This document shows, one piece after another, positions 35,132 through 55,996 of a stretch of 64,000 nucleotides of DNA. The stretch's first letter is position 1, and each line of letters starts with the position of its first letter. The DNA is taken from NCBI GenBank assembly GCA_022072085.1, contig JAJVII010000020.1:62001-126000 (forward strand), written 5' to 3'. Made by a program: the position numbers and the translations under genes. The DNA is from Phycisphaerae bacterium (GTDB taxonomy: Bacteria > Planctomycetota > Phycisphaerae > JAJVII01). The notes beneath the pieces were generated by a model that saw only the letters and a list, made by a program, of their open reading frames with translations, made no database searches and was not told where the DNA came from.

Positions 35132-35159
35132 TTGACTGTCGGCGAATCAATCTTACATT
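35132..35159 (+). promoter_or_regulatory. Sigma-70-like promoter of the riboswitch/pilus transcript
   Basis: TTGACT, a 16-bp spacer and TACATT in a locally AT-rich patch. The predicted start near 35166 is about 50 bases before the riboswitch. Confidence 0.45.
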
Positions 35160-35216
35160 TGCCTTGTCGCCCCCATACGGGGCGGAGATTCGCCACGGGC
35201 GAATCGCGCATCCAAC

Positions 35217-35313
35217 GAAAGGGCAATCTCCGGTCCGGTAAGACCGGCCGGGGAGCGCAAAGCCACGGTCCTCCGGCGCCCTCGGGGCGAAGGAGGAGGC
35301 CGGGCTGCCGAAG
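35217..35313 (+). promoter_or_regulatory. Class I cyclic-di-GMP (GEMM-I) riboswitch
   Basis: The conserved core is readable in order: AAGGGCAA; a P2-like arm with GGTAAGACC at its tip; GCGCAAAGCCACGG; a second arm (CCTCCGGCGCC / GGCGAAGGAGG); and GGCCGGGCTGCCGAA. The GCAAAGCCACGG and GGG-x-TGCCGA blocks, and their spacing around two hairpins, match the class I aptamer that binds c-di-GMP. It lies on the strand of the pilus locus about 490 bases before the first pilin. c-di-GMP riboswitches often control pilin and adhesion genes. Whether binding turns expression on or off cannot be told. Confidence 0.85.
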
Positions 35314-35320
35314 GGATGTG

Positions 35321-35377
35321 AGCCAAGAGCCCGTCCACCCGACCGCGTCCGAACGGACGCGGGCCCCTTCGTTGGCT
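35321..35377 (+). promoter_or_regulatory. Hairpin after the riboswitch (candidate expression platform)
   Basis: An inner perfect stem CCGCGTCCG-AA-CGGACGCGG (35343-35362) is nested in an outer AGCCAA / TTGGCT pairing. It lies 8 bases after the aptamer. The following CCCCTTCGTTGG has only a weak T-run, so it may be an imperfect terminator or an RNA-processing element. Confidence 0.4.
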
Positions 35378-35802
35378 TGAAAACCCGGTTCCCAGTACTG
35401 CCAGGGCGGAAAGAGGCCGGCGGGCCGATCGGAAATTTCCGGCGGCCAAGTTAAGTCGTCCTCCCTTCCTGACGATGCACGGATAGCAAAAAGTCGCGAT
35501 CCGGCACGTACCCGGGCAGATGGGTCAAACGAAGTTCGCAGACATCGTGGTTTGCCGGAGCGAGCGACATGGACGCTACGTTCAGGGCAAACTCAGGTCC
35601 GCTGTGAGGAGGTGAATGGAATCAGCGGGCAACAGGCTTCGACCGTCACGCAGGCCGCGAGGCCTGCCGACCAGGCAGAGGTTGCGACGGAACGAGGGCC
35701 TTGCACTTGCAGACTCGGTTCATTCTCGAACGTGTGGCTGACAACAGAAGACAGATCCTTTTCGGATCGCCAAGACGCGATCCCGTTTCGGAGGGAACAC
35801 AG

Positions 35803-36219
35803 ATGAATAGGACTCGCAGCGCATTTACGCTGGTTGAAATTCTGATCGTCGTGATCATCCTGGGCATCCTGGCGGCCATCGTCATCCCGCAGTTCACCGA
35901 GGCCAGCAACGACGCCCGCCTCAGCAGCATGACCAGCGACCTGCAGACCGTCCGCAGCCAGCTGGAGCTGTACAAGGTTCAGCACCTGGACAAGTACCCG
36001 GCGCTGGACACCTTCGAGGCCGAGATGACCGGCACGACTGACATCAACGGCGACACGACGGGCACGGACTTCGGTCCCTACCTGCACCGCGTCCCGACCA
36101 ACCCGTTCACCAACACCAATGACGTGGGCAGCGGCGAGGTCGGCTCCAGCGCGTGGTACTACGATGCGACGACCGGCGCGTTCCATGCCAACGACACGGA
36201 CGCCCACGCCGCCCTGTAG
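35803..36219 (+). CDS. Major type IV pilin / GspG-like pseudopilin
   Basis: 138 residues; GGAGG lies 9 bases before the ATG. A short basic leader (MNRTRSA) precedes FTLVEILIVVIILGILAAIVIPQF with the Glu5 needed for assembly. The residue before the cleavage site is Ala rather than the commoner Gly. The C-terminal part (YLHRVPTNPFTNTNDVG...WYYDATTGAFHAN) is the GspG-type end seen in major pseudopilins. As the first gene after the riboswitch it should be the most strongly expressed subunit. Cleavage would need a PilD/GspO peptidase, which is not in the window. Confidence 0.88.
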   Translation: MNRTRSAFTLVEILIVVIILGILAAIVIPQFTEASNDARLSSMTSDLQTVRSQLELYKVQHLDKYPALDTFEAEMTGTTDINGDTTGTDFGPYLHRVPTNPFTNTNDVGSGEVGSSAWYYDATTGAFHANDTDAHAAL

Positions 36220-36280
36220 TTCGTGAAGCATGCCCAGGCGTCCCGCCCCGGCGGGGCGTTCGGGCTCAAGTCGGCCCGTC

Positions 36281-36328
36281 GGGGCGGCAGAGGAATCTCC
36301 GGCAGACGCCGGTGTTCCTCTCCGCCCC
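36281..36328 (+). promoter_or_regulatory. Strong hairpin between the tandem pilin genes
   Basis: GGGGCGG-(C)-AGAGGAA pairs with TTCCTCT-CCGCCCC: 14 base pairs with one bulge, and its loop holds a further CCGGC/GCCGG stem. No T-tract follows. Such hairpins often protect the upstream message or dampen read-through, which would raise the first pilin relative to the rest. Confidence 0.5.
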
Positions 36329-36475
36329 GCAGGCACGACGCTGGCGGTCGGACGTTCCGCCCCAGCGAAAGCCTGACGATCCAGTTCGAGACCGCGCGGC
36401 CTGGCATCGAAGAGACGAAATCCGGCGTTCGACCCGGACTTGAAGTCGAGTCTCGCCAGGCAGTGGGATAAGACC

Positions 36476-37027
36476 ATGACAAGCGTCGCAAGACTACCGA
36501 TGTCCGCTCGATCGCTGCCTGCGCTTAGGCGGGGCAACCGGGAGAGGCCGGGCTTCACCCTGGTCGAAATCCTGATCGTAGTGGTCATCCTGGCCATCCT
36601 GGCGACGATCGTCATCCCCAAGCTTTCCAACGCCTCGCAGACCGCCGCCGAGAACACGCTGAAGGAAGACCTTCGCTACATGCGGACGCAAATCCAGGTC
36701 TACCGCTTCCAGCACCTGGAGGTCATGCCCGGCTTCAACGGCAGCGACTACGACGCGGACACGTTCCGGGCGCAGATGACCATGGCCACCAACATCAACG
36801 GCCAGACGGCTGCCCCGGGCTCCGACGGCTACCCGTACGGGCCCTATCTCCGCCAGTTGCCGGCCAACCCGCTGAACAACAAGGCCAGCGTAGAGGTCGT
36901 CAGCGGGCTGGGGCAGTTGCCCGACGCCGACAGCAGCCACGGGTGGATTTATCAGCCCGAGACAAACTCCTTCGTCGCCGACATCCCGGGCGTCGACCTG
37001 GGCGGGGTCGCGTTCGCGAATTACTAG
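36476..37027 (+). CDS. Second type IV pilin / GspG-like pseudopilin
   Basis: 183 residues from MTSVAR; a shorter start MSARSL at 36500 is possible. The leader is long (about 26 residues) and ends RPG before FTLVEILIVVVILAILATIVIPKL, giving canonical Gly at -1 and Glu at +5. The helix and the following segment (LRYMRTQIQVYRFQHLE) clearly resemble the preceding pilin, and both end with a YGPYLRQLPANPLNN-type stretch, so the pair arose by duplication. A 16-bp hairpin made of a dispersed repeat begins a few bases after the stop. Confidence 0.87.
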   Translation: MTSVARLPMSARSLPALRRGNRERPGFTLVEILIVVVILAILATIVIPKLSNASQTAAENTLKEDLRYMRTQIQVYRFQHLEVMPGFNGSDYDADTFRAQMTMATNINGQTAAPGSDGYPYGPYLRQLPANPLNNKASVEVVSGLGQLPDADSSHGWIYQPETNSFVADIPGVDLGGVAFANY

Positions 37028-37030
37028 AGG

Positions 37031-37117: not shown

Positions 37118-37795
37118 ATGATGCAACGGTCTGCACAACGCGCCGGGGGCTTCACGCTGATCGAAGGCCTGCTGGCTTCGGCGGTGCTGGCTGTCGCGGC
37201 CGGCGCGCTGCTCTATCCCTTCACCGTCGGCGCCCAGAACAACGTGATCGTCGTCGACCAGGCGGCCGCGGTGAACCTGGGCGAGTCTCTCATGGAGGAG
37301 ATACTCACCCGCAACTTCCACGACCCTGACGGCGACAGCAGTCCGGGTCCGGAATCCGGCGAGACCAGCCGACTGCTGTTCGACAACTTCGACGACTACG
37401 ACGGCTACACCGAAGGGCCCGGACACATGAAGGACGCCGCCGGGACGCTGATTTCCGAGTCGTCGCTGTCGTCCTACGGACGCAGCGTCAGCGTCGCCTC
37501 TATCCGCCTGCCCGACCAGCCCGCCGACGCCGATCCGAACTTCGTGCGGGTGATCGTCACGGTCACCAGCCAGGGCCGGACGGTGTGCGAACTGACCAGG
37601 CTGATCGGCGCCGGCAATGAGAACTTCGACGGCGTGCAGCTCAACGACGGGTCGTCCAACAACGGCAACGGCAACGGCAACGGCAACAGCGGGTCCAACA
37701 GCAACGGCAACGCCGCGGACGCCGGCGCCGGCGACGCGTCGGCCACCGGCACCAACGGGCACAACGGGCAGACCCGCGGGCGATGGGCCCGCTAG
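37118..37795 (+). CDS. Prepilin-like minor pseudopilin (GspI/PilV type)
   Basis: 225 residues. The leader MMQRSAQRAGG precedes FTLIEGLLASAVLAVAAGALLYPF, a prepilin helix with Glu5. The middle part (VDQAAAVNLGESLMEEILTRNF) resembles the I/V-type minor pseudopilins that start the pilus tip. The C-terminus is a low-complexity Asn/Gly/Ser tail made of NG and GN units (about 185-205), encoded by an AACGGC tandem repeat that could vary in length by slippage. It overlaps nothing; the next gene starts 37 bases later. Confidence 0.8.
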   Translation: MMQRSAQRAGGFTLIEGLLASAVLAVAAGALLYPFTVGAQNNVIVVDQAAAVNLGESLMEEILTRNFHDPDGDSSPGPESGETSRLLFDNFDDYDGYTEGPGHMKDAAGTLISESSLSSYGRSVSVASIRLPDQPADADPNFVRVIVTVTSQGRTVCELTRLIGAGNENFDGVQLNDGSSNNGNGNGNGNSGSNSNGNAADAGAGDASATGTNGHNGQTRGRWAR

Positions 37796-37832: not shown

Positions 37833-38456
37833 ATGAGCAGGAGCGCGAAAGCAAGGGCAGGGGCGTTCACGCTGGCTGAGCTGATCATCAGCCTGGCGGT
37901 GGGGGCGTTCGTGCTTTCGGCGGCGGCGGCGCTGGCATTTGCTGTCGGCCATGCCTGGAACGCCAGCGACGACGTGAACGAGCTGGTGAATCACGGCCGC
38001 AACGGGGCGGTGAGGATCGCCGAGCGGATCCGAGCGGCCCGGGCGGTGGGTTATGTGAGCAATCGCCATCTCGTGCTGTGGCGCGAGGACAGCAACGGCG
38101 ACGGGAAGATCAACCTGGACGAATTAACGGTCTACTACCTCAACAAGTCCAGCAACGAGCTGATGGAGGGCCAGGTGGTCATGCGGTCCGACACGGACGC
38201 GCGGACGCAGGCCGCCAACGATTACGAAGTGACCACTGATGATTTCACCCGGGCGTCGATCGTCTCGACTCTGACCCGGGCCAGCCTCTACCAGGAAGGC
38301 CCAGTCGCGGACTACGTGTCGGCGATCGACTGGGTAATCGACCTGGACGCCCCGTACACGCGGCTGGTTCAGTTGCGCCTGACACTGACCAAGGACAACA
38401 TGAGTCAGACGCTTCAGTCGGGGGCGTCGCTGAGAGCGCCTCTGGAGCTGGAATGA
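37833..38456 (+). CDS. Prepilin-like minor pseudopilin (GspJ/PilW type)
   Basis: 207 residues from the ATG at 37833. Leader MSRSAKARAGA, then FTLAELIISLAVGAFVLSAAAALAF with Glu5. A calcium-loop-like DSNGDGKINLDE (about 92-103) lies in the globular part; calcium-stabilised pseudopilins are known, so this may be structural. The last codons overlap the start of the next gene (ATGA), showing translational coupling. Confidence 0.8.
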   Translation: MSRSAKARAGAFTLAELIISLAVGAFVLSAAAALAFAVGHAWNASDDVNELVNHGRNGAVRIAERIRAARAVGYVSNRHLVLWREDSNGDGKINLDELTVYYLNKSSNELMEGQVVMRSDTDARTQAANDYEVTTDDFTRASIVSTLTRASLYQEGPVADYVSAIDWVIDLDAPYTRLVQLRLTLTKDNMSQTLQSGASLRAPLELE

Positions 38457-39697
38457 ACAGGCGGACGCCTAACGTGACGGCGGTATCGGACGGCGGCTGC
38501 GGCCGCCGCCGCGGCAACGTGCTGGTCGTCGTCCTCGGGCTGGTGGCGGCTGTCTCCGTGCTGGGCATCGCCTACATCGAGGACAACGGGCTGAGCGTGC
38601 AGGGGGCGTTCAACCTCTCCAGCATGAGCCGGGCCCGCTACGTCGCCGAATCGGGCGTCGAGGAGGCGACCTACTGGCTCAGCCAGACCAGCCCGCCCCA
38701 CGCCAACGCCCAGGGCTACTGGCCCGGCGCGACCGGCCGACACGTCGATTCGACCGACGACTACTACGACGTGACCGTCGTGCGCGACTCTTCCAACCGC
38801 AACCGTTACACAATCACGAGCATCGGCTACGCCACCAGCCGCGGGGCGGCCCTTTCGCACAAGACGGTGGCCGTGGTCACCGTCAGCCCGCTGCTGACGG
38901 TGACGCTGCCCTACGCGTTGCACCTGGATGCGTTCAGTTGGCTGGCCCACGATTTTCGGATTACCGGCGACGTCCACTGCAACAACACGGTCTATAGTGA
39001 CGCGATCATCAACGGCAACCTGACGGCCTCGGGGTGGATGGTCTACTGGACCAAACCGACCGGGTCGGCCCAGGCGTTGCAGCCGACCTCGCAGTTCCCG
39101 CCGCTGAACGTGTCGGCCTACACCAGCTATCTGCTGGAGGGGACGACCTACACCGCCGCGACCTACACGAGTGAAACCATCGGCACGCCCAGCAACTTCG
39201 CCGGCACGGACCCCAATCACAGCGGCTCGTCACAGTGGAACGTCAGCGCGACCAACCCGGGCGGGGTGCTCAAGTGTACCTATCGCCCGGGCTACGGCAC
39301 GCGGCGGGTGGTGCTCAGCAACGGCTGCGACTTCACGGGCACGATCATCTGCGACGGGGACGTCTACCTCAACGGCAAGACGATCACGGTCACGCCGCTG
39401 CCGGGTTTCCCGGCGATCGTCTGCACGGGCAACCTCTACGTGAGCGACAACAACGCGGACATCACGCTGAACGGAGCGGTGATCGTCGGCGGCACGCTGG
39501 CGGCGTCGGTGAGCAACATCAAGAAGTCGTGGATCGCCGCGAACGGGCCGGTCCACTTCGGCGGCGGCCTGTCGCTGTTCGCCGACTGGACGGGCATGAC
39601 GATCAATCCGTCGGCGGACCGCAAGTGGCTGTATGACGTGACGGGGACGCTGGGAACCGGCAGCGGAGGGCCGGTAACCGTGCAAAGCTGGCAGTGA
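38453..39697 (+). CDS. PilX/GspK-like minor pilin component
   Basis: 414 residues. A Gly-Arg leader (GCGRRRGN) precedes a hydrophobic helix VLVVVLGLVAAVSVLGIAYIED, then SMSRARYVAESGVEEATYWL, the conserved block after the helix in PilX/GspK-like proteins. The rest is a beta-rich domain with repeated DVYLNGKTITV / ITLNGAVIVGG motifs like a short beta-solenoid. This could form the pilus tip or an adhesive domain. It begins by ATGA overlap with the PilW-like gene. Confidence 0.75.
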   Translation: MNRRTPNVTAVSDGGCGRRRGNVLVVVLGLVAAVSVLGIAYIEDNGLSVQGAFNLSSMSRARYVAESGVEEATYWLSQTSPPHANAQGYWPGATGRHVDSTDDYYDVTVVRDSSNRNRYTITSIGYATSRGAALSHKTVAVVTVSPLLTVTLPYALHLDAFSWLAHDFRITGDVHCNNTVYSDAIINGNLTASGWMVYWTKPTGSAQALQPTSQFPPLNVSAYTSYLLEGTTYTAATYTSETIGTPSNFAGTDPNHSGSSQWNVSATNPGGVLKCTYRPGYGTRRVVLSNGCDFTGTIICDGDVYLNGKTITVTPLPGFPAIVCTGNLYVSDNNADITLNGAVIVGGTLAASVSNIKKSWIAANGPVHFGGGLSLFADWTGMTINPSADRKWLYDVTGTLGTGSGGPVTVQSWQ

Positions 39698-39727: not shown

Positions 39728-40078
39728 ATGAGACAGTGGGCGGTGAGAAAGCGGAACTGGATGCTGGCGGCGCTGCTGCTGGCGGTCGCGGGGGTGCTGG
39801 TGCAGGAGCGGATGTTCCTGCCCGGCCCGCCGCAGGCGCAGGCGCTCTATCCGGCCGACGACCGGGCGAGCATGATCGACCAGCTCAAGCTGATGAACCA
39901 GAAGCTGGACACGCTGATTTCGATTATGCAGTCGGGCAAAGTTAAGGTGGTCGTCGCCAATGCCGAAGAACTGAAGGCGGCGCCCTCCGGCGCCGGCGTT
40001 CAGGCTCAACCGGCCCCCGGACAGGCCGCCCCCGACAATGAGCCCAGGGTGATCATTCGGAGGAAGGGCGAAGAGTGA
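39728..40078 (+). CDS. Small single-pass protein of unknown function in the pilus locus
   Basis: 116 residues. One membrane helix (about 12-25, MLAALLLAVAGVLVQ) follows a basic start. Next is a short amphipathic coil (MIDQLKLMNQKLDTLISIMQSG), a VKVVVAN strand and a Pro/Ala-rich basic-acidic tail ending RRKGEE. No family is recognised. Its stop overlaps the GTG of the GspH-like gene (GTGA), so expression is coupled to the pseudopilins. A role in assembly is only a guess from position. Confidence 0.65.
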   Translation: MRQWAVRKRNWMLAALLLAVAGVLVQERMFLPGPPQAQALYPADDRASMIDQLKLMNQKLDTLISIMQSGKVKVVVANAEELKAAPSGAGVQAQPAPGQAAPDNEPRVIIRRKGEE

Positions 40079-40572
40079 TCGGGAGAGCGGGACATCGCGG
40101 AGGGGCGTTCACCCTCGTCGAACTGCTGGTCGTGCTGGTGATCCTGGGGATCGCGGCGTCGATCGTGGTGGCTGTCTTTGGCAGCACGGGCGACCTGAAG
40201 ACGGCGGCGGCGGCCCGCAAGCTGACCAGCGACCTCCAGTATGCCCAGAACTTCGCCATCACCCACCAGACGAAGGTGCGCGTGGCGTTCGACGCCTCGG
40301 GCAACAGCTACACGCTGCTGTCGGTTCCCGACGCGGGCAGTGCGACGGTGATGACCCATCCGATCACACACAAGCCCTACGTCGTGACGCTGTCGTCGGA
40401 CGAGGGGCTCAAGAACGTCAGCCTGGGCAGCGTGGACTTCTCCGGTTCGACAGCGATCGATTTCGACGCGCTGGGCGCCCCGGACCAGGGCGGCCAGATC
40501 ACGGTCGTCAGCGGCAGCACTCTCAAGACGCTGACGGTCGCTCCGGTGACCGGGAAGATTTCGATCCAGTAG
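40075..40572 (+). CDS. GspH/FimT-like minor pseudopilin
   Basis: 165 residues starting at GTG in a GTGA overlap. Leader MIGRAGHRGGA, then FTLVELLVVLVILGIAASIVVAVF with Glu5. RKLTSDLQYAQNFAITHQTKVRVAFDASGNSYTL is the classic GspH/FimT block, and FDALGAPDQGGQITV is its C-terminal strand pair. It acts in the minor pseudopilin tip complex. Confidence 0.85.
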   Translation: MIGRAGHRGGAFTLVELLVVLVILGIAASIVVAVFGSTGDLKTAAAARKLTSDLQYAQNFAITHQTKVRVAFDASGNSYTLLSVPDAGSATVMTHPITHKPYVVTLSSDEGLKNVSLGSVDFSGSTAIDFDALGAPDQGGQITVVSGSTLKTLTVAPVTGKISIQ

Positions 40573-40601: not shown

Positions 40602-41870
40602 CTGATCCTGCGAAAGAACATACTGGGCTCGCTGCTCCATCGGGACTACTCCCCGATCGGCATCGACATCGGGCACGAGTCGATCAAGATGCTCCAGCTT
40701 CACCGCCGCGGCGTTCAGTGGCAGGTGGCCGCCAGCGGGCTGCACATCTTCGGACAGGACGTCCGCCAGAGCCCCGACCTGCGATGGCGGCAGGCCGTCG
40801 GGGCGATCGACTCGCTGCTGAGCTCCAACGCCTTCCGCGGGCGGCGCGTGGTGCTCTGCCTGGGCAGCGATCAGGTGATGATCAAGAACGCCCGGCTGCC
40901 CAAGATGCCCGCCGCCGACATGGGCGAGGCCGTGCGGTGGGAGGCCGCCGACCGGTTCCCCTTCGACGTCAATGCAGGCATCCTGCGGTTCATGGTCGCC
41001 GGCGAGGTCCGCCAGGGCGGCGAACTGCGGCAGGAAGTGCTCATGCTGGCCGCCTCCGATCAGTGCATCCGCGAGCAACTCCGCCTGCTCGAACTGGCCG
41101 GCTGCCAGCCGGTCGGCATGGACGCCCAGCCGATGGCACTGGCGAGGGCGGTCGAGGCCTTCTGGCCGATTTCTCCCTCCGAGGACGAGCCGGTCCGCGT
41201 GCTGGCCGACCTGGGCGCCGAGACCTGCCAGCTCCTGGTCATGCGGGGCAGGCAGGTGGTGTTCGTCAAGACGATCGAGATCGGGTCGGCCCACCTGACC
41301 CGTGCGGTAGCCGAGAGCGTCGGCACGAGCTTCGAGGACAGCCACGCCCTTCGCCTGCGGATGGGCAACGGGGCAACCGACGGCGCCGGCGGGGACGAAA
41401 GCCTGGCTGAGGGGTCCAAGATTCACCGTGCGGTGACCGCGGCGATGCGGCCGGTGATCGAGCGCCTGACGCAGGAAATTTCGCTCTGCCTGCGTTACTA
41501 CTCGGTGACGTTCCGCGGCAATCGGCCGGGGACGGTGAGCTTCGCCGGCGGCGCCAGCCACGACCAGTTGCTGATGCCGATGCTGGGCGAGGCGCTGGGG
41601 ATGACGGTGCAGATCGCCGGTCCGCTGACGCACTGCCGGCCTGACGAGCAGACTTGCCAGTGGGGCGCCGGGGCGGCGATCGGAGGCCCGGAGTGGGCGG
41701 CGGCGCTGGGCTGCTGCCTCAAGCCTTTGCCCAACGGAAAGGCGAGCGTGGATCCGTCGGCCGTCGTGCCGGCGATGGCGGGCAGCGTGGGCGGATCGAC
41801 GGCGGCCGTGACGGCCCAGGCGGAACCGGCGTTGCCGGCCGCCGCAACCGAGGAGGCATCGGTTCGCTGA
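40602..41870 (+). CDS. pilM: PilM-like actin-fold pilus assembly protein, probable non-ATG start
   Basis: The conserved start PIGIDIGHESIKMLQL, which is the phosphate-1 motif of PilM, lies mostly upstream of the first in-frame ATG (40689). The reading frame is open farther 5'. No ATG, GTG or TTG is available, but CTG at 40602 follows GGAAAGG at 8 bases and gives LILRKNILGSLLHRDYSPIGIDIG and 422 residues. An in-frame ATT at 40584 is another candidate. The protein also has ADLGAETCQLLVM (phosphate 2) and VSFAGGASHDQLL (adenosine). PilM binds ATP and the N-terminus of PilN at the inner-membrane face. Confidence 0.85.
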   Translation: MILRKNILGSLLHRDYSPIGIDIGHESIKMLQLHRRGVQWQVAASGLHIFGQDVRQSPDLRWRQAVGAIDSLLSSNAFRGRRVVLCLGSDQVMIKNARLPKMPAADMGEAVRWEAADRFPFDVNAGILRFMVAGEVRQGGELRQEVLMLAASDQCIREQLRLLELAGCQPVGMDAQPMALARAVEAFWPISPSEDEPVRVLADLGAETCQLLVMRGRQVVFVKTIEIGSAHLTRAVAESVGTSFEDSHALRLRMGNGATDGAGGDESLAEGSKIHRAVTAAMRPVIERLTQEISLCLRYYSVTFRGNRPGTVSFAGGASHDQLLMPMLGEALGMTVQIAGPLTHCRPDEQTCQWGAGAAIGGPEWAAALGCCLKPLPNGKASVDPSAVVPAMAGSVGGSTAAVTAQAEPALPAAATEEASVR

Positions 41871-41895: not shown

Positions 41896-42600
41896 ATGAC
41901 AGAACTCGACTTCCTGCCAGACTGGTATCACGTCCGCCGGGAGCGGCGTCGGGGCTACTTCGTGCTCTTCTGGTTGCTGGGGTGCCTGATTGCCCTGATG
42001 GGCGTCTGGTTCTACCTGACTCACAACCAGCTCGGGAAGGTCCAGGCCGAACTGAAGGACCTCAAGGCCGAGCGCGCCGTCGTCAACGACCACCTGGTCA
42101 AGATTGACAAGCTGCGTTCGGTGCGCGACGACCTGATCCGCAAGGCGGCCATCAACGCCCAGCTCCAGAACCAGCCCGACGCCCTCCAGGTGGTCGGGCA
42201 GATCATGGAACTGATGCCCGAGGACATCAGCCTGATGGACCTCCAGTTGAGCACCGAGGTGGTCAAGGCCAAGGCCCCGCCGGTCCGCAAGGGCTCCAAG
42301 GCCCCCGCGGCCCCCAAGGAGCCGGACAAGATTCACTACCTGGTGCAGATCACCGGGCTGGCGCCCTACGACGTGTCGGTGGCCAACTTCATCGCCCGGC
42401 TGTCGGCGACCGAGGGGTTCCAGAACGTGCAGATGGGCTACGCCAAGGATCTGCTTCGAAACGATCGCCGGATGCGCGAGTTCCAGGTGAACTGCCGCCT
42501 GGCCGACGACTGGAAGCCCGTCAGCGCCGACCGCTGGGAACATGCCCAGGTCGTGCCGTTGGCCGGTCAGGCGTCGGCGCCGGTGTCCGAGGGACAGTGA
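41896..42600 (+). CDS. pilN: PilN-like inner-membrane assembly protein
   Basis: 234 residues. The N-terminus ELDFLPDWYHVRRERRR has the FLP-x-W element by which PilN docks on PilM. One membrane helix (about 21-41) is followed by a coiled coil (LGKVQAELKDLKAERAVV) and a ferredoxin-like periplasmic domain (VQITGLAPYDVSVANFIARLSATEGFQNVQM). The middle has a Lys/Pro/Ala-rich insertion (KAKAPPVRKGSKAPAAPK). It lies 25 bases after pilM and 28 before the pilO start. Confidence 0.85.
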   Translation: MTELDFLPDWYHVRRERRRGYFVLFWLLGCLIALMGVWFYLTHNQLGKVQAELKDLKAERAVVNDHLVKIDKLRSVRDDLIRKAAINAQLQNQPDALQVVGQIMELMPEDISLMDLQLSTEVVKAKAPPVRKGSKAPAAPKEPDKIHYLVQITGLAPYDVSVANFIARLSATEGFQNVQMGYAKDLLRNDRRMREFQVNCRLADDWKPVSADRWEHAQVVPLAGQASAPVSEGQ

Positions 42601-46132: not shown

Positions 46133-46143
46133 ATGACGACCTG

Positions 46144-47741: not shown

Positions 47742-49184
47742 ATGGGAACCGCGAGACGGTTGATTCTGGTGCTGATCGTCCTGATCGCGTTGGCGTCGAG
47801 CACCGCCTATTACGCCACTGAGATGAGCCTGCGCGGCGTCCCGGTGCGCGAGCGCGTGATGGGCTGGCTGGCTGTCGGGCTGACCAGCAGCGTCTGCGCC
47901 CTGGTGATGGTCATCATCTGGCGGTCGCTGGGCAAGACGGTGCAGATCGTCCGCCACCAGCTCTCGCTGCTGGAGGGCAGCGGCGAGGTCGGGCTGATCA
48001 TGGTCGACAGCCACGACGAGCTGGGCATGCTGGTCCAGGAATTCAACCACTACCTGACGCGAATCAAGAGCCGCTTCGAGCAGGTCAAGCTCCAGAAGCG
48101 CGAGTTGGACATCCAGATCCGCGTCGCCGACGTGGAGAAGAAGCACACCGAGGCGATCATCTTCTCGATCTCCGACGCGGTCGTGGTCACCGACAGCTTC
48201 GACGAGCTCGTGCTGGCCAACGAGGCCGCGGAGCGCACCTTCGGCTTCCGGATGTCCGAGTGCTATCGCCAGCCGGTCGGGCAGGTGATCCGGGATCCGC
48301 AGTTCGTGCGGCTGATCTCCGACGCCCGGGGCGAGAACATGGAGCATCGCCGGCGCGTGGTGGAATACTCCGGGAAGGTGGAAGGCCAGCCGCGGAGCTT
48401 CAACGTTACGCTTTCAGGGGTGATGGATTCCAAGGGCCGCTGCAACGGCGTCGTGGCCGTGATGCACGACGTGACGCGCGAGAAGGAGATAGCGGCCATG
48501 AAGACCGACTTCGTCTCCAATGTCTCGCACGAGCTGCGCACCCCGCTGTCGTCGATCAAGGCCTACGTCGAGATGCTCGTGGACGGCGAAGCCGAGGACG
48601 AGCAGACCCGCCGCGAGTTCTACGACATCATCCAGAACGAGACCGACCGGCTGGGCCGCCTGATCGACAACATCCTGAACATCAGCCGCATCGAGTCGGG
48701 CGTGATCCGGATCAACAAGCAGCCGCTGGCGCTGACCAGCGTGATCAAGGACGCGCTGGAGGTGGCCAAGCCGCAGGCGGCGGCCAAGCAGATCGAGCTG
48801 ATCGACCAGCTCTCGGTAGTCTGCCACCAGGTGAACGCCGACCGCGACATGCTCTATCAGGCGGTGCTGAACCTGCTGAGCAACGCGATCAAGTACACCC
48901 CCGCGGGCGGCAGCGTGACGGTGCGGTCGGTTTCCGACGACGCTCGGCACCTGGTCCGCGTGGAGGTCAAGGACACCGGCGTGGGCCTGAGCCCCGAGGA
49001 CCAGGCCCACATCTTCGAGAAATTCTACCGCGTCGAGGCGAGCAAGAACATGGCCAAGGGAACCGGGCTGGGCCTGAGCCTGGTCAAGCACATTATCGAG
49101 ACCGTTCACGAAGGCGAGATGGGCGTATTCAGCCGGCTGGGACAGGGAAGCACGTTCTACTTCCAGTTGCGGCTGTGCGATTGA
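47742..49184 (+). CDS. Membrane sensor histidine kinase (HAMP-PAS-HisKA-HATPase)
   Basis: 480 residues. Two membrane helices (about 6-26 and 41-62) with almost no periplasmic loop, then a HAMP-like linker and coiled coil (DELGMLVQEFNHYLTRIKSRFEQVKLQKRELD). A PAS domain (IIFSISDAVVVTDSFDELVLANEAAERTFGF, about 140-245) precedes the H-box SNVSHELRTPLSSIKAY (His about 263), N-box LYQAVLNLLSNAIKYTPAGG, G1 VKDTGVGLSPEDQ and G2 KGTGLGLSLVKHIIE. This is PhoR/ResE-like. The short loop suggests it senses a membrane or cytoplasmic cue. The receiver gene follows after 38 bases. Confidence 0.92.
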   Translation: MGTARRLILVLIVLIALASSTAYYATEMSLRGVPVRERVMGWLAVGLTSSVCALVMVIIWRSLGKTVQIVRHQLSLLEGSGEVGLIMVDSHDELGMLVQEFNHYLTRIKSRFEQVKLQKRELDIQIRVADVEKKHTEAIIFSISDAVVVTDSFDELVLANEAAERTFGFRMSECYRQPVGQVIRDPQFVRLISDARGENMEHRRRVVEYSGKVEGQPRSFNVTLSGVMDSKGRCNGVVAVMHDVTREKEIAAMKTDFVSNVSHELRTPLSSIKAYVEMLVDGEAEDEQTRREFYDIIQNETDRLGRLIDNILNISRIESGVIRINKQPLALTSVIKDALEVAKPQAAAKQIELIDQLSVVCHQVNADRDMLYQAVLNLLSNAIKYTPAGGSVTVRSVSDDARHLVRVEVKDTGVGLSPEDQAHIFEKFYRVEASKNMAKGTGLGLSLVKHIIETVHEGEMGVFSRLGQGSTFYFQLRLCD

Positions 49185-49222: not shown

Positions 49223-49615
49223 ATGTCCAAGCGGATCATGGTGGTCGACGACGAGGCCCACATCCTGCACGTGGTTTCCCTGAAACTGCGGAACGCGGGT
49301 TACGAGGTGCAGACGGCCGGCGACGGCGAGGAGGCCCTGGAACTGGCCCTGGCCGAGCCGCCCGATCTGCTGATTACGGATTACCACATGCCGGTGATGA
49401 ACGGCGTCCAGCTTTGCTCCCAGTTGCGGGCGCACGAGCAGCTCAAGTCCATCCCGGCGGTGATGTTGACGGCGCGGGGCTATGCCCTGGAGCCCGAGGA
49501 CATGGAGAAGACGGGCATCCTCACGCTGCTGAGCAAGCCGTTCAGCCCGCGCGAGCTGCTCGCGGTCGTCCAGCAGGTGCTGGAAGGCAACGGCGTCGCG
49601 CAGGGCGCCGAGTAG
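49223..49615 (+). CDS. Single-domain response regulator (CheY-like)
   Basis: 130 residues with a GGAGGAG ribosome-binding site. Acidic pair D9/D10, phospho-acceptor Asp53 (LLITDYHMPVMNG), Thr in VMLTARG and Lys in LLSKPFSPREL are all present. No output domain exists, so it must act by protein contact, as in pilus or motility control. It is the likely partner of the kinase just upstream, and the HD-GYP protein downstream is a candidate target. Confidence 0.92.
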   Translation: MSKRIMVVDDEAHILHVVSLKLRNAGYEVQTAGDGEEALELALAEPPDLLITDYHMPVMNGVQLCSQLRAHEQLKSIPAVMLTARGYALEPEDMEKTGILTLLSKPFSPRELLAVVQQVLEGNGVAQGAE

Positions 49616-49672: not shown

Positions 49673-51463
49673 ATGGACACATTGGAACCCGAATCCAAGT
49701 CGTTGCCGAGCCGGGCGGGGGATGCTGCCGGCCAGGCCCTGAAGGTCGTCTCGGCGGCTGACGCGCCCGCGTCGCCGGCCGTCGCCGGCTCGTGGGCCTG
49801 GCTGAGCGACGTGATCGGCCAGCTTGCCAGCCTGGGTCTGCACGCCGTGGTATACGATGAGAAGGGTCAACTGGTTCTGGCTGCGCCGGCGCCTGCACCC
49901 TTCTTCAAGATGGTCGCTCCCAGATGCCTGCCGGCCTGCTCGATGGGGCACAGGGCCGCGGAAATCGTTGGTAACGTCGAAGCCAAGGACGTGGCCGCCT
50001 GCATCCCCGGCGTCTACACGATCTTCGTGCCCGTCCTGCGCCGCCGTCGCAGGATCGGCGTCGTCGCCGCGTGCCTGGTCTGTCGCGACCTGGCCGACTC
50101 CGAGGAGTTCGCCCACTTCTGCCAGCGTCACGGCTTCGACCGTGAGGCGCTGCTGCGGATGGGCGCCCAACAGGCCCGCTTCGAATCCAGCCAGCTCTCC
50201 ACCGTGCGGCTGACCGTCCGGCTGCTGGTCGACCAGGCCGTCGCCCGCCACCAGGCCGACCAGGAGCTGTCGGAGCTGAGCCTGAACCTGACCAACACCT
50301 ACGAAGAGCTGAACCTGGTCTACCGGATGTCGGCCGGCATGAAGGTGACCGAGAAGCCCGGCGACTACCTCAACGGCGTGGGCAGCGAACTGCTGGAGGT
50401 CATGGGCGTCGAGTCGCTGGCGATCCGTTACTTCCGCCCGGACGAGCCGCTGATCAGCGAGCACATCGGCGTCGGCGCCGAACTGACCACGCCGTCGATC
50501 GAGCAGACGCTGTGGGACGAGCTGCTGGGCTACTTCGAGGCCGGCCGATCCGAGATCGTCAACAACCGCGTGGGCGAGATCGACGAATCCGCGCCGCTGC
50601 GGTCGCTGGCCCACCACCGCCGGGTCCGGCAGCTGGCCGCCGTGCCGATGCTCCGCAACGGCAAGCTGCTGGGCGCGATGGTGGCGATGAACAAGCTGGC
50701 CGAGGACTTCGACTCGGTCGACGTGAAGCTGATGCGGTCGATCGCCGACGAGGCGGGCGTGTTCCTCGAGAACGCGTTCCTCTACGAAGATCTCCAGCAA
50801 CTGCTGATCGGCATGTTGCGGGCGCTGACCAGCGCGATCGACGCGAAGGATCCGTACACCTGCGGCCATTCCGAGCGCGTGGCGGCCATCTCGGCGCAGA
50901 TCGCCCGGTCCGCGGGGCTGGACGAGAAGACGGTCGGCCGCGTCTACCTGTCGGGCCTGCTGCACGACATCGGCAAGATCGGCGTGCCCGAGGCGGTGCT
51001 GACCAAGCCCGGTCGGCTGACCAAGGCCGAGTTCGCGGTGATGAAGAAGCACCCCGAGATCGGCGCCCGTATCCTGGCCGGCATCAAGCAGGTCCAGGAC
51101 ATCGTGCCCGGCGTGCTCTATCACCACGAGCGGATGGACGGGCGAGGCTATCCCGAGGGGCTCACGGCGGCGAACATCCCGCTGTTCGGGCGGATCGTCG
51201 GGCTGGCCGACTGCTTCGACGCGATGACCAGCAACCGCACCTATCGGCGGGCCCTGCCGCTGGAGGTGACGCTGACGGAAATCCGGCGGTTCGCCGGGAC
51301 GCAGTTCGACCCCGAACTGGTCGAGGCGTTCTTCCGGATCGATCCGCGCAAACTGATCCAGGAAACGCGGCAGGTGAACCCGAACGACCCGCTGGCCAAC
51401 GTGGTCCGCAACAGCGGGGCGCTGCTCGGATTCGACGCGGCGCCGGTCAGCCTGCTGCCGTGA
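49673..51463 (+). CDS. GAF / HD-GYP domain protein, putative c-di-GMP phosphodiesterase
   Basis: 596 residues from MDTLEP. The N-terminal sensor region (about 45-170) has Cys residues spaced as in redox- or ligand-sensing PocR-like domains (RCLPACSMGHR, VAACIPGVYTI, ACLVCRDL). A GAF domain follows (about 215-375). The HD-GYP domain (about 395-570) has HSERVA, HDIGKIG, the proton-donor Lys in LTKPGRLT, HPEIGARIL, HHERMDGRGYPEGL and DCFDAMTSNRTYR, all metal and GYP residues intact. The family hydrolyses c-di-GMP. It lies inside a locus headed by a c-di-GMP riboswitch, suggesting local feedback. Confidence 0.88.
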   Translation: MDTLEPESKSLPSRAGDAAGQALKVVSAADAPASPAVAGSWAWLSDVIGQLASLGLHAVVYDEKGQLVLAAPAPAPFFKMVAPRCLPACSMGHRAAEIVGNVEAKDVAACIPGVYTIFVPVLRRRRRIGVVAACLVCRDLADSEEFAHFCQRHGFDREALLRMGAQQARFESSQLSTVRLTVRLLVDQAVARHQADQELSELSLNLTNTYEELNLVYRMSAGMKVTEKPGDYLNGVGSELLEVMGVESLAIRYFRPDEPLISEHIGVGAELTTPSIEQTLWDELLGYFEAGRSEIVNNRVGEIDESAPLRSLAHHRRVRQLAAVPMLRNGKLLGAMVAMNKLAEDFDSVDVKLMRSIADEAGVFLENAFLYEDLQQLLIGMLRALTSAIDAKDPYTCGHSERVAAISAQIARSAGLDEKTVGRVYLSGLLHDIGKIGVPEAVLTKPGRLTKAEFAVMKKHPEIGARILAGIKQVQDIVPGVLYHHERMDGRGYPEGLTAANIPLFGRIVGLADCFDAMTSNRTYRRALPLEVTLTEIRRFAGTQFDPELVEAFFRIDPRKLIQETRQVNPNDPLANVVRNSGALLGFDAAPVSLLP

Positions 51464-51476: not shown

Positions 51477-51812
51477 ATGAACATCAGCCACGAAAACTAC
51501 GGACACGTCACGGTGCTCTCGCTCCGCGGGGAGTTCACCAACGACGACGTGGAGAACTTCCAGCGGGTGGCCAACGACCAGATCAGCCACGACGTGCGCG
51601 ACCTGGTGATCGACCTGGAGAAGGTGCCGTTCGTGGACTCGGCGGCGCTGGAGGCGATGCTGGCTCTGCGGGACCAGGCGGCCGAGCAGATGGGCATGGT
51701 CAAGCTTGCAGGCGCTGACGAGAACGTCGCGCGGATCCTGTCGCTGACCCGCCTGGACCATCAGTTCGAGACGCACGGAGACATGATCGAGGCGGTCAAG
51801 AGCTTCCGTTAA
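51477..51812 (+). CDS. STAS-domain protein (anti-sigma-factor-antagonist-like)
   Basis: 111 residues. A complete STAS fold: VTVLSLRGEFTNDDVENF, then LVIDLEKVPFVDSAALEAML, with Ser55 in the DSAALE motif as the likely phosphorylation site, as in SpoIIAA-type proteins. It starts 13 bases after the HD-GYP gene. No SpoIIAB-type kinase is in the window, so the partner is unknown. It may be a switch in pilus regulation. Confidence 0.87.
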   Translation: MNISHENYGHVTVLSLRGEFTNDDVENFQRVANDQISHDVRDLVIDLEKVPFVDSAALEAMLALRDQAAEQMGMVKLAGADENVARILSLTRLDHQFETHGDMIEAVKSFR

Positions 51813-51848: not shown

Positions 51849-53558
51849 ATGGTAGAAGCGATCAAACTGAAGAAACAGGTCGGCGAGGTTCTGCTGGAGC
51901 GGGGCTGGCTGACGACCGGGCAACTGGAGCAGGCCCTGGCCGCCCAGAAGAAGGAAGGCCACCAGCGGCTGCTCGGCGAGATGCTCATCGAGCTGGGCTT
52001 CGTCACCGAGGAGCAGGTCACCGAGGCGCTGGCCGAGGGCTACGGCGTGCCGTTCGCCCGCATCTCGCCCAAGGTGGCCGACGCGAAGATCATCGACGTG
52101 CTGCCGCGCGACTTCCTGGAGAAGCACTCGATCCTGCCGCTGTTCAAGGTCAACCGCCAGCTCACCGTGGCCATGACCGAGCCGGCCAACGTCTTCCTGA
52201 TCGAAGAGATCGAGCGGATGACCGAGTGCGAGGTGCTCGTCGTCGCCGCGTCGGGCAAGGACATCAAGAACACGCTGACGACGCACATGCCGTCGGCCAA
52301 CATCTTCGTGATCGACGAGATCATCGAGGACGTGCAGCTCGACCAGTTCTCCGTGGTCGAGGAGCAGCCCGAGGACATCGGCAACCTCGAGGACATCGCC
52401 GGGCACAGCCCGGTGGTCAAGCTGGTCAACTACCTGCTCTACAACGCGGTCAAGGAAGGCGCCAGCGACATCCACATCGAGCCGGACGAGCACCACCTGC
52501 GCGTGCGCTACCGCATCGACGGCCGCCTGTTCGAGAAGATCCGCCCGCCGCTCCAGATGCACCCGGCCGTGGTCAGTCGCGTGAAGATCATGGCCCGGAT
52601 GGACATCTCCGAGCGCCGCCTGCCGCAGGACGGCGGCATCCACGTGCTGATGCAGCGCCGACCGATCGACCTGCGCGTCAGCACGATGCCCGGCAAGCAC
52701 GGCGAGAAGGTGGTCATCCGCGTCATCGACAACCGCGCGGTGCTGGTCAGCCTGGACAAGCTGGGCTTCAACTACGAGATGCTCAAGCTGTTCCGCAAGG
52801 AGATCGTCCGGCCGCACGGCATGGTCCTGGTCACCGGGCCCACCGGCAGCGGCAAGAGCACGACGCTCTACTCGGTGCTCAACGAACTGGCCAGCGAGGA
52901 GGTCAACGTCTGCACCGTCGAGGACCCGATCGAGTTCAACCTGCCCTGGATCAACCAGTTTCAGGTGAACGACAAGATCGGCTTCACCTTCGCCAACGCC
53001 CTGCGGGCGCTGCTGCGGCAGGACCCCGACATCATCATGGTCGGCGAAATCCGCGACCAGGACACCGCCCGCATCGCCACGCAGGCGTCGCTGACCGGGC
53101 ACATGGTCTTCTCCACGCTGCACACCAACGACGCCCCCGGCGCGATCACGCGGCTGTTCAACATCGGCGTCGAGCCGTACCTCGTCGCCGCGTCGATGAC
53201 CGCAATCGTGGCCCAGCGGCTGGTCCGCAAGATCTGCACCAACTGCAAGGAGCCCTACGATCCGCCGATCAACATCCGCCGGGCGATCGAGAAGATCGGC
53301 GGTGAGTTCGACACGCTCTATCGCGGCGTCGGCTGCAAGCGATGCCACAGCACCGGCTACGCCGGCCGCATCGGCATCTACGAGCTGATCGTTCCCTCCG
53401 ACGAGCTGCGCGACGCGATCGCCGCGGGCAAGAACCTGGGCGACCTGCGGCAGATCGCCCGCAAGGAAGGCTACGTCGGACTGCGCGAGGACGGCCTGAG
53501 CAAGGTGAAGGCCGGCATCACCAGCCCCGACGAAATCTTCACCGCGACGGCGATGTAG
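51849..53558 (+). CDS. pilB: PilB/GspE assembly ATPase with MshEN-like N-terminus
   Basis: 569 residues. Residues about 10-60 contain two successive copies of an MshEN-type motif: GEVLLERGWLTTGQLEQALAAQ and, after 6 residues, LLGEMLIELGFVTEEQVTEAL. In MshE such motifs bind c-di-GMP. The first copy lacks the usual Arg-Leu-Gly lead (KQVG) and the second lacks the final Gln. Walker A GPTGSGKST is near 329, the Asp box TVEDPIEFNLPWINQFQVN, Walker B PDIIMVGEIRDQDTARIA and His box HMVFSTLHTND follow. The zinc tetracysteine CTNC...CKRCH lies near 462-500. It powers pilus extension or secretion. Confidence 0.93.
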   Translation: MVEAIKLKKQVGEVLLERGWLTTGQLEQALAAQKKEGHQRLLGEMLIELGFVTEEQVTEALAEGYGVPFARISPKVADAKIIDVLPRDFLEKHSILPLFKVNRQLTVAMTEPANVFLIEEIERMTECEVLVVAASGKDIKNTLTTHMPSANIFVIDEIIEDVQLDQFSVVEEQPEDIGNLEDIAGHSPVVKLVNYLLYNAVKEGASDIHIEPDEHHLRVRYRIDGRLFEKIRPPLQMHPAVVSRVKIMARMDISERRLPQDGGIHVLMQRRPIDLRVSTMPGKHGEKVVIRVIDNRAVLVSLDKLGFNYEMLKLFRKEIVRPHGMVLVTGPTGSGKSTTLYSVLNELASEEVNVCTVEDPIEFNLPWINQFQVNDKIGFTFANALRALLRQDPDIIMVGEIRDQDTARIATQASLTGHMVFSTLHTNDAPGAITRLFNIGVEPYLVAASMTAIVAQRLVRKICTNCKEPYDPPINIRRAIEKIGGEFDTLYRGVGCKRCHSTGYAGRIGIYELIVPSDELRDAIAAGKNLGDLRQIARKEGYVGLREDGLSKVKAGITSPDEIFTATAM

Positions 53559-53569
53559 AAGAAGAACTG

Positions 53570-53606
53570 CGGAGTGCTGAGTGCTGACTCCTAGCTCCTA
53601 AGTGCT
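53570..53606 (+). repeat. GAGTGCTGAGTGCTGA-type tandem repeat between pilB and pilT
   Basis: Degenerate 7-8 base units (GAGTGCTGA, CTCCTAGCTCCTAAGTGCTAA) fill most of the 54-base gap between the two ATPase genes. Confidence 0.6.
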
Positions 53607-53612
53607 AATGAC

Positions 53613-54740
53613 ATGACCCTGGGCCAACTGCTCCAATCCGCCTGCCGGCTGCACGCCAGCGATCTGGTGCTGGCCGCCGGGGCTGCGCCGACCGTCTGGG
53701 TCCACGGCCGCATGCGGACGATGGACGATTGGCCGACGCCGCTGGAGGCCGGGGCCGTGGGCGAACTGTTCGCTCCGCTGCTGAGCGACGACCAGCGGGA
53801 CCGCCTCCAGCGCTGCGGCGACCTGGACTGGTCGGCGTCGCTGGACGGGCTGCTGGCTGACGAACAGGAGGGCGACCTGGCGCGGATTCGCGTCAACCTG
53901 CATCGCCAGCGCGGCGACCTGGCAGCCGCCGTCCGGTTCATCTCCCGCCATGTGCCGACGCTGGAGTCGCTGAACCTGCCGGCCGTCGTGGGCGAATGGG
54001 TCGACCTGCCGCGCGGGCTGGTGCTGGTGACCGGCCCGACCGGCGCTGGCAAGAGCACGACCCTGGCGGCCATGGTCCAGCAGGCCAACCGGACCCACGA
54101 CTACCACGTGATCACGCTGGAGGACCCGATCGAATACCAGTTCGAGCACGGGCGATGCCTGATCGAGCAGCGTCAGATCGGCGAGGACTGCCCGGGCTTT
54201 GCCGAGGCGCTGCGGCACGTCGTGCGGCAGCGGCCGGACGTGATCCTGGTCGGCGAGATGCGCGACCGCGAGACGATCGCGGCGGCGCTGACGGCGGCCG
54301 AGACAGGCCATCTTGTGCTGGCGACGCTGCACACGAGTTCGGCCCCGGCGACACTGGCGCGGATCATCGACGTGTTCGACCACGAGCGGCAGGGGCAGAT
54401 CCGGCTGCAACTGGCCGGCTCGCTCCAGTGCATCCTCTGCCAGTGCCTGCTGCCCGACCGGCTGGGCGGCGGGGTGGTGCCGGCGACGGAGGTGCTGATC
54501 GCCGGGACGGCCATCCGCCGGGCGATCCGCGACGGCGCCGAGCACCAGATCGACGCGATGCTGGAGACCGGCGGCGGGTTGGGCATGCACAGCCTGGAGC
54601 AGGATCTGGCCCGGCTGGTCGACGAGGGGCGTATCGCACTGGACGACGCGGCGGCGCGGTGCGACGACGTCGAGAAACTGAACCGCCGGCTGGGATCCCA
54701 ACGGGCGCCCGACGCCCGAGTCCGGGGAGGCAGGAGATGA
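53613..54740 (+). CDS. pilT: PilT/PilU-like retraction ATPase
   Basis: 375 residues. The N-terminal PAS-like domain begins LLQSACRLHASDLVLAAGAAPTVWVHG. Walker A is GPTGAGKST near 141, then TLEDPIEYQFEHGRCLIEQRQIG, Walker B PDVILVGEMRDRETIAAALTAAETGHLVLATLHT and the C-terminal ATEVLIAGTAIRRAIRDG. The AIRNLIRE motif needed for retraction in PilT is here AIRRAIRDG, so retraction competence is plausible but not certain. Its stop overlaps the pilC start (ATGA). Confidence 0.9.
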   Translation: MTLGQLLQSACRLHASDLVLAAGAAPTVWVHGRMRTMDDWPTPLEAGAVGELFAPLLSDDQRDRLQRCGDLDWSASLDGLLADEQEGDLARIRVNLHRQRGDLAAAVRFISRHVPTLESLNLPAVVGEWVDLPRGLVLVTGPTGAGKSTTLAAMVQQANRTHDYHVITLEDPIEYQFEHGRCLIEQRQIGEDCPGFAEALRHVVRQRPDVILVGEMRDRETIAAALTAAETGHLVLATLHTSSAPATLARIIDVFDHERQGQIRLQLAGSLQCILCQCLLPDRLGGGVVPATEVLIAGTAIRRAIRDGAEHQIDAMLETGGGLGMHSLEQDLARLVDEGRIALDDAAARCDDVEKLNRRLGSQRAPDARVRGGRR

Positions 54741-55996
54741 TCAAGTTCAACTACGTCGCCCGCGACAGCAGCGGGCAATCGATCAACGGGACGGTGTCGG
54801 CGCTGACGCCGGCGGCCGCCAGCCGGCAGCTCCGCCAGGAGGGCAAATTCCTCCTGCGCCTGGAGGCGGCGTCGGCCGGGGCGAGCGGGCCGGTTGCCAA
54901 GGCCGCTGCCGCGTCGCAGCCCCTGGCCACCCCCTCGGGCAGCCGGCGCGGCATCAAGCGCAAGGACCTGATCTACGTCACCACGCAGATGGCGGTGATG
55001 GCCGAGACCGGCGTGCCGCTGGCCGACGCGCTGGACTCGATCTGCGATCAGATGAGCAACCAGAACCTCCAGGCAATCCTCAAGGACGTGGCCGAGCGGG
55101 TCAAGAGCGGCGAAGAATTCAGCTCGGCGCTGGGCCGGTATCCCAAGCTCTTCTCGGCGATGTACGTCGCGATGGTCAAGGCGGCTGAAGCCAGCGGCAC
55201 GCTGGGCGTCATGCTCGAGCGCATCGCCGAATACCTGACCGACGAGGAGGAGACCCGCAAGAAGGTCCGCGGGGCGCTGGTCTACCCGGTTTCGATGCTG
55301 GTCTTCGCGCTGGCGGTCACGGTGTTCCTGATGGCGTTCGTGCTGCCGAAGTTCACCGCCATTTACGCCCAGAAGCAGGCGGCCCTGCCGGTGCTCACGA
55401 AGGTCGTGATGGGCATCAGCAACTTCATGGTGACCTACTGGATCCACCTGGTCATCGGCACAGCGGCCGCGACGACCGGGCTGGTCTTCTTCTTCCGCAG
55501 CGAGGGCGGCAAGGACTGGTGGGCCGGCGCCAAGCTGAAGATTCCGCTGCTGGGCAGCATGTTCCACAAGGCCTACATGACCCGCTGCCTGCGGACGCTG
55601 GGCACGCTGATCGCCACCGGCGTGAGCATGCTGGAGGCGGTCGAGATCACCCGGCGCGTCGCCGGACGCGGACCGTTCGGGCGGCTGTGGGAGAACGTCG
55701 ACCAGACGCTGCGCGGCGGGCAGCAGTTGTCCGACCCGCTGCTGCGCGAGCCGCTGATCCCGCGGTCGGTGGCCCAGATGATCTCGGCCGGCGAGCGGAC
55801 CGGCACGCTGCCCAACGTGCTGGAGCGCGTCGCGGGGTTCAGCGACCGCGAGCTGAAGAACCAGATCAAGACGATCACCTCGATGATCGAGCCGATCATG
55901 ATCTCGCTCATGGGCCTGATCGTCGGCACGATCGTGATGGCGCTGCTGATGCCGATCTTCACGATCAGCAAGGTGATGACGACCCACGGCGGATAA
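54737..55996 (+). CDS. pilC: PilC/GspF inner-membrane platform protein
   Basis: 419 residues; GGAGGCAGGAG precedes the ATG. It starts with FNYVARDSSGQSINGTVSA, as PilC/GspF proteins do. Two T2SSF helical domains follow (about 80-205 and 285-410), each with the GEEFSSAL / GGQQLSDPL and KAAEASGTLGVMLERIA / SAGERTGTLPNVLERVA pattern. Three membrane helices lie near 185-210, 235-255 and 385-410. It couples the cytoplasmic ATPases to pseudopilin assembly. An Ala/Ser linker (52-70) is longer than usual. Confidence 0.93.
   Translation: MIKFNYVARDSSGQSINGTVSALTPAAASRQLRQEGKFLLRLEAASAGASGPVAKAAAASQPLATPSGSRRGIKRKDLIYVTTQMAVMAETGVPLADALDSICDQMSNQNLQAILKDVAERVKSGEEFSSALGRYPKLFSAMYVAMVKAAEASGTLGVMLERIAEYLTDEEETRKKVRGALVYPVSMLVFALAVTVFLMAFVLPKFTAIYAQKQAALPVLTKVVMGISNFMVTYWIHLVIGTAAATTGLVFFFRSEGGKDWWAGAKLKIPLLGSMFHKAYMTRCLRTLGTLIATGVSMLEAVEITRRVAGRGPFGRLWENVDQTLRGGQQLSDPLLREPLIPRSVAQMISAGERTGTLPNVLERVAGFSDRELKNQIKTITSMIEPIMISLMGLIVGTIVMALLMPIFTISKVMTTHGG

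Follow-up and report, generated by a model that had tools for sequence, protein, structure and literature searches.

A predicted cyclic di-GMP riboswitch and a sigma-28-type promoter motif ahead of the major pilin gene in a Phycisphaerae type IVa pilus operon

The pilus locus and its riboswitch leader

The DNA analyzed here, hereafter the window, is a stretch of 64,000 nucleotides from a Phycisphaerae bacterium (assembly GCA_022072085.1, contig JAJVII010000020.1, positions 62,001 to 126,000). It carries a type IVa pilus locus of 20 genes, all on the plus strand between 35803 and 55996; no gap between them exceeds 280 bases. The type IVa set is complete: pilins, PilMNOPQ (PilP by position only), PilB, PilT and PilC. 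Ahead of the first pilin gene lie, in order, a sigma-70-like promoter, a riboswitch aptamer for cyclic di-GMP (c-di-GMP) and a sigma-28 (FliA) type promoter motif; farther downstream are genes for an HD-GYP phosphodiesterase and for a PilB ATPase with an MshEN domain. As judged from the sequence, two promoters probably serve pilA, one distal and acting through the riboswitch, the other proximal and of the flagellar sigma-28 type.

The first-pass annotation of this DNA had placed a GEMM-I riboswitch at the head of the locus, and both the element and its coordinates proved correct. The Rfam family RF01051 (c-di-GMP-I, GEMM-I) matches 35212-35312 on the plus strand with 38.8 bits (E = 4.7e-4, all families against the whole window), the gathering score being 35 bits. 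Because this score barely clears the threshold, we built a held-out covariance model on 18 aptamers, all from families other than that of the window genome and its family-mate G001, which were both excluded. The held-out model scores the region 35208-35317, which adds an outer P1 extension to the Rfam core, at 54.1 bits (E = 6.7e-15), the G001 aptamer at 56.8 bits and a second aptamer of the window genome at 62.1 bits. When 21 aptamers are aligned, 14 of the 21 pairs of the two-hairpin fold show double-sided (compensatory) changes, and the ligand-contact residues GGC, CGCAAAG and CC are invariant (21/21). In Vc2 numbering we take the ligand residues to be G20, A47 and C92, and A20 to be the mark of aptamers for cyclic GMP-AMP (cGAMP). 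A cGAMP-type (GEMM-Ib) aptamer was rejected, since none of the 21 aligned aptamers departs from G at position G20; by its ligand residues, the window aptamer is of the c-di-GMP type. Nine GGDEF proteins encoded in the window genome could be the makers of its ligand.

The riboswitch transcript presumably starts from a distal promoter, TTGACT-N16-TACATT at 35132-35159 (plus strand), which matches the sigma-70 consensus at 9 of 12 positions. Similar TTG..-N17-TA...T sites lie at a similar upstream distance in most related loci, and individually they are weak (p ~0.03 against shuffled sequences for the window). The expression platform is uncertain because no conventional U-tract terminator follows the window aptamer; few are found in the relatives, and an intrinsic terminator was rejected as the platform. 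A candidate is the anti-aptamer segment GCCCCTTCGTTGG at 35362-35376 (plus strand), which has complementarity to CCAACGAAAGGGC, the 5' strand of the aptamer, and lies 3' of the hairpin CCGCGTCC-GAAC-GGACGCGG. The predicted duplex of aptamer and anti-aptamer has an energy of -22.9 kcal/mol (p = 0.013 against shuffles), and G001 has the same arrangement with a different sequence and the pairing retained (p = 0.007); the segment could thus compete with the aptamer 5' strand. Among loci in which an aptamer heads a pilin operon, hereafter type A, the pairing is significant in the window and G001 only and is not conserved in the other riboswitch-bearing family when compared with shuffles; as a general platform it was dropped. 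In four loci (L098, L100, L019 and L101), a near-copy of the aptamer 5' strand (TTTCCCCGAAAAGGC) lies about 80-100 bases past the aptamer, just ahead of the sigma-28 motif, and might be a competitor for the aptamer 3' strand.

A FliA-type motif between aptamer and pilA

The c-di-GMP-I riboswitch occurs in 43 of 397 genomes of the class. Among 62 aptamers examined, 16 are followed by pilin operons and 17, including the second aptamer of the window genome, by pilMNOP-pilBTC loci, hereafter type B. A PilQ-anchored scan of named genomes, by which the lineage falls in Phycisphaerae, Planctomycetota, recovered the gene order PilQ-TPR-HK-RR-HD-GYP-STAS-PilB-PilC (TPR, tetratricopeptide repeat; HK, histidine kinase; RR, response regulator) in about 18 loci. 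With model R1, a full aptamer was found ahead of the pilin gene in nine PilQ-anchored loci. Two of the nine, L194 (SM23_33) and L197, are additional to the 16 above and bring the type A loci to 18 in total; the same model found no aptamer in six full loci whose upstream sequence was available (L125, L128, L140, L149, L170 and L178).

Between aptamer and pilA the window carries TTAAGTCGTCCTCCCTTCCTGACGATG at 35451-35477 (plus strand), a bipartite motif TTAAG-N17-CGATG that the first-pass annotation had missed and that resembles a sigma-28 promoter. The form T[T/C]AAG-N17-CGAT[A/G] is present at this place in 18 of 18 riboswitch-headed pilin loci, 99-264 bases 3' of the aptamer and always with a spacer of 17 bases, against a chance expectation of about 0.0007 per region. 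It is found in none of the 17 type B loci, and gene bodies hold a single occurrence in 127 kb. A motif scan upstream of other pil genes gave 19 matches in 472, mostly before pilM, pilQ and GspH and with the similar sequence TCAAGGT...CCGATA; these are probably coding sequence, and for this reason only matches directly ahead of the pilin gene were counted.

The same kind of site precedes flagellin genes. The two main flagellin genes of the window genome carry TAAAGTCGGTCTCCCCGTCAGACGATG and TAAAGTTTCGCGTCCCTTCCTGCCGATG upstream, similar sites precede the main flagellin genes in six of seven relatives, and together they follow the form T[A/T/C]AAG-N16-18-CGAT[A/G]. The pilA motif fits the FliA pattern (TTAAG/TAAA at -35, CGATA at -10), with a spacing of 17 at pilA compared with 16-18 at the flagellins. 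In Bdellovibrio, the experimentally mapped FliA consensus is TTAAG-N16-CCGATA (PMC3627812). The window genome encodes two FliA-family sigma factors above cut-off; one (L111) adjoins a MinD/FlhG-like gene, and the second, of the FliA/WhiG family (L112, G000:C34:31014-31682, 227 bits), lies near a receiver-domain gene. Pilus loci of the type A kind that lack a riboswitch also carry the motif (3/6, or 4/6 when CGATG is counted). The simplest reading of this distribution is an older flagellar-type pilin promoter, upstream of which a riboswitch-bearing leader was added later in two families.

Since the predicted sigma-28 type promoter sits between aptamer and pilA, the riboswitch can gate the distal transcript only, and on this reading it cannot be the sole transcriptional gate. 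The first-pass annotation had counted separate promoters isolating the pilin genes from the riboswitch as evidence against its own scheme, and with the motif at all 18 loci this is apparently the case, at least in part.

HD-GYP phosphodiesterase, PilB and the other genes of the locus

The HD-GYP phosphodiesterase that had been claimed within the locus is indeed there (49673-51463, plus strand; PF13487, E = 1.4e-38). The protein also has a GAF domain, preceded by a weak PocR match, and its catalytic motifs are all intact (H399, HDIGK at 431-435, HHE at 484-486 and GRGYP at 490-494), as they are in four orthologues. Its nearest relatives in the PDB are 5z7c, a cGAMP phosphodiesterase and the best match, then the HD-GYP protein 4mcw, and also 4r8z. 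The enzyme probably hydrolyses c-di-GMP (or cGAMP).

PilB (51849-53558, plus strand) begins, as had been proposed, with two MshEN-like motifs, which span residues 10-64. The NCBIfam c-di-GMP motif model NF053729 matches residues 11-63 with 55.5 bits (cut-off 38), PF05157 matches residues 65-145, and phmmer aligns the protein with Vibrio cholerae MshE (5htl, E = 3.6e-15). Like MshE, whose tandem motif served as the standard for comparing residues (PMC5013675), and like the GSPII domains of Thermus PilF (PMC11731258), the window PilB is an extension ATPase with tandem 24-residue c-di-GMP motifs; it differs from them by Gln for Arg9, Leu for Arg38, Gly for Gln61 and a spacer two residues longer than that of MshE. 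The first motif is QVGEVLLERGWLTTGQLEQALAAQ and the second LLGEMLIELGFVTEEQVTEALAEG, and the resulting spacer of seven residues is also found in the binder GSPII-C, as read from the PilF sequence. Both LG glycines (G11 and G40), Gln32, L25, L29, L39 and L58 are retained, Leu10 and Leu54 are Val, and both motif arginines are absent. By the rule of R, K or L at the first position, the Leu of motif II fits the extended consensus and the Gln of motif I does not; of the Gln expected at the last position of each motif, the one at 32 is present and the one at 61 replaced. Across 28 Phycisphaerae PilBs, G11, G40 and L58 are invariant, Gln32 is kept in 26, and Gln61 is Gly or Ala in most.

We judge it fairly likely that this PilB binds c-di-GMP. 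With the two arginines and one of the paired glutamines lost, binding is plausible and no more than that, and it is likely yet unproven because the NF053729 model also scores a known non-binder, GSPII-A (52.9 bits, compared with 58.4 for the window PilB); the motif score was for that reason rejected as a predictor of binding. A rival explanation that retains considerable weight, though we would not bet on it, is that the MshEN domain is a structural remnant like GSPII-A of Thermus PilF and that c-di-GMP acts on expression only, which is compatible with everything proposed below for expression. The changes at Arg9 and, in most PilBs, at Gln61 speak for it, together with the replaced leucines at 10 and 54 in the window, the score of GSPII-A itself, and the finding that restoring the consensus did not suffice in GSPII-A (PMC12002112). 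However, both ligand-contacting glycines are invariant in the 28 PilBs, and the Leu cluster and Gln32 are largely retained, whereas the PilBs of type B loci have mostly lost the glycines. Moreover, Leu at motif II position 1 accompanies very tight binding in GSPII-B, which binds c-di-GMP at 6 nM (PMC11731258).

The remaining genes are likewise all on the plus strand. The major, PilA-like pilin (35803-36219; PF07963 and GspG/pilin models) is followed by a second pilin-like gene (36500-37027, with a possible start at 36440; PF07963) and by three minor pilins slightly under cut-off: PilV-like (37118-37795; PF07963), PilW-like (37833-38456; PF07963) and PilX-like (38453-39697; PF14341). GC-rich inverted repeats at 36230-36295, 3' of the first pilin gene, look as if they held back or protected the pilA transcript. 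After a small protein without a Pfam match (39728-40078; a similar small open reading frame has the same place in G001 and G049) come a GspH-like pseudopilin (40075-40572; PF12019), PilM (40689-41870; PF11104, E = 9e-21), PilN (41896-42600; PF05137), PilO (42629-43159; PF04350, E = 2e-21) and, in the PilP position, a gene with no PilP family match that is conserved in relatives (43207-43842). The PilQ secretin (44039-46132; PF00263, E = 1e-36; TIGR02515 below cut-off) precedes a protein with TPR repeats (46270-47577; TIGR02521 PilW below cut-off), and domain matches identify a membrane PAS-HisKA-HATPase histidine kinase (47742-49184) and a receiver-only response regulator (49223-49615). Adjoining pilB is a gene of the STAS (anti-sigma antagonist) family (51477-51812; PF01740 and TIGR00377 above cut-off), and Phycisphaerae pilus loci in which no kinase, regulator or HD-GYP gene was found (L136, L146, L150, L169 and L176) also have such a gene directly 5' of pilB. 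The locus ends with the PilT retraction ATPase (53613-54740; TIGR01420 above cut-off) and the PilC platform protein (54737-55996; PF00482, E = 7e-62).

Two predicted pilin promoters and c-di-GMP

Our preferred reading, which we consider reasonably probable, is a type IVa pilus operon with two stacked pilin promoters, the distal one riboswitch-gated and the proximal one of sigma-28 type, with HD-GYP and PilB encoded downstream. The distal sigma-70-like promoter would start the riboswitch leader near 35166, and read-through from this leader into the pilin genes would depend on c-di-GMP. Transcripts initiated at the proximal promoter, near 35484, would bypass the riboswitch and express pilA together with the flagellar regulon. 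Pilin would be made during swimming, from the sigma-28 promoter, and again, or no longer, after c-di-GMP changes at a surface, by way of the riboswitch; neither ON nor OFF is assigned, because there is no conventional terminator and the anti-aptamer pairing is limited to the window and G001. Downstream, HD-GYP would break down c-di-GMP (or cGAMP) and the PilB motor would sense c-di-GMP via MshEN, which would place control at transcription (two inputs), c-di-GMP breakdown and the motor. We infer ligand binding, sigma-28 dependence, read-through to pilB and HD-GYP feedback from sequence features. Weighing against this reading are the missing U-tract terminator 3' of the window aptamer, the window -10 element, which is CGATG and not CGATA, and the Gly and Gln that replace Gln61 and Arg9 of PilB. 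CGATG also occurs as the -10 at flagellin genes of the window genome.

The first-pass annotation had proposed that one messenger could act at three levels. All three elements (riboswitch, HD-GYP and PilB) are real and their combination is conserved: seven loci (the window, G202, G049, G116, G028, G140 and G042), from seven genera and two families, have all three on a single stretch of DNA. The scheme needs amending in that the riboswitch would gate the distal transcript only, that PilB binding is plausible, and that the wiring is a proposal. HD-GYP, STAS and PilB are also present in Phycisphaerae pilus loci without the riboswitch, which therefore looks like a lineage-specific layer. A more tentative idea, which we hold as possible and rather doubtful, is a hand-over device, in which pilin would first be made with the flagellum and then come under c-di-GMP control at the surface, with HD-GYP and PilB tuning the same signal.

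It is unlikely that the riboswitch is instead the main transcriptional gate of the whole operon, with the downstream bipartite motif inactive as a promoter. The aptamer does lie on the coding strand before 20 collinear genes with small gaps, and a GEMM element at pilM in Geobacter metallireducens works as a transcriptional ON switch for a polycistronic pil locus (PMC9262584), but the motif has fixed spacing in 18 of 18 loci, resembles the FliA sites of flagellins, and is carried by aptamer-less loci too. Least probable is that the riboswitch RNA acts mostly free, as a short c-di-GMP-binding buffer ending before the sigma-28 promoter that alone would make pilA: the promoter motif does sit between aptamer and gene, and Bdellovibrio expresses its merRNA, a c-di-GMP aptamer RNA that regulates no open reading frame, at massive levels (PMC3627812), but for most type A aptamers no downstream terminator was found, and aptamers consistently precede three kinds of surface-appendage genes, near the start codon in the pilMNOP and Tad kinds, which points to regulation in cis.

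The stacked arrangement of our preferred reading combines parts known from elsewhere. The pilA1 riboswitch of Clostridioides difficile belongs to class II, another class than that of the window aptamer; the phylum differs too, and we know of no in-operon HD-GYP or FliA-type promoter there. According to two reports, c-di-GMP controls type IV pili through riboswitches in that organism (PMC6200980, PMC6366702). Pilus genes preceded by a GEMM-I switch are likewise known already: as in the window, a GEMM-I class aptamer heads a type IV pilus operon in G. metallireducens, but it binds cGAMP, heads pilM and is a known ON switch with a terminator (PMC9262584), whereas the window aptamer has c-di-GMP-type residues and heads pilin genes, with a FliA-type promoter motif between. 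In Bdellovibrio, as at pilA here, the TTAAG-N16-CCGATA motif serves non-flagellar surface genes, and a c-di-GMP aptamer RNA belongs to the same life-style switch; there the merRNA is free-standing, whereas in the window aptamer and FliA-type promoter are stacked before one pilin operon (PMC3627812). c-di-GMP binding by extension ATPases was known as well. What is new, on sequence evidence, is the combination of known parts, and chiefly the stacking of a riboswitch and a probable sigma-28 promoter.

Our literature search, with subscription papers outside it, found no paper on c-di-GMP and type IV pili in Planctomycetota, nor on such riboswitches in Phycisphaerae. The operon offers a testable model, based on sequence, for the coupling of swimming to attachment in a phylum whose surface sensing has seen few molecular studies. 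If the model is true, the flagellar sigma factor and c-di-GMP both feed into pilin expression within a few hundred bases, and c-di-GMP may have further points of action in the motor and in its own breakdown.

Judging by the aptamers before pilin, pilMNOP and Tad-type genes, control of surface appendages by c-di-GMP riboswitches appears to be general in the class. The second aptamer of the window genome (L011, G000:C22:8001-28000, at 9971-10051 on the minus strand, 60.4 bits) heads a second pilus locus, pilMNO-(P)-BTC, which is closer to Geobacter in that the aptamer lies directly ahead of pilM; the MshEN motif of its PilB is degraded, and the class holds 16 similar loci. Of the remaining aptamers, about 19 precede TadE/G-like genes of Flp pilus or vWA type, as judged by eye, at a distance of some 30-135 bases (L055, L058, L062, L064, L067, L081, L083, L094, L102 and others), some of them in tandem within one locus, and the TadE/G-like genes tested passed Pfam in four of four cases.

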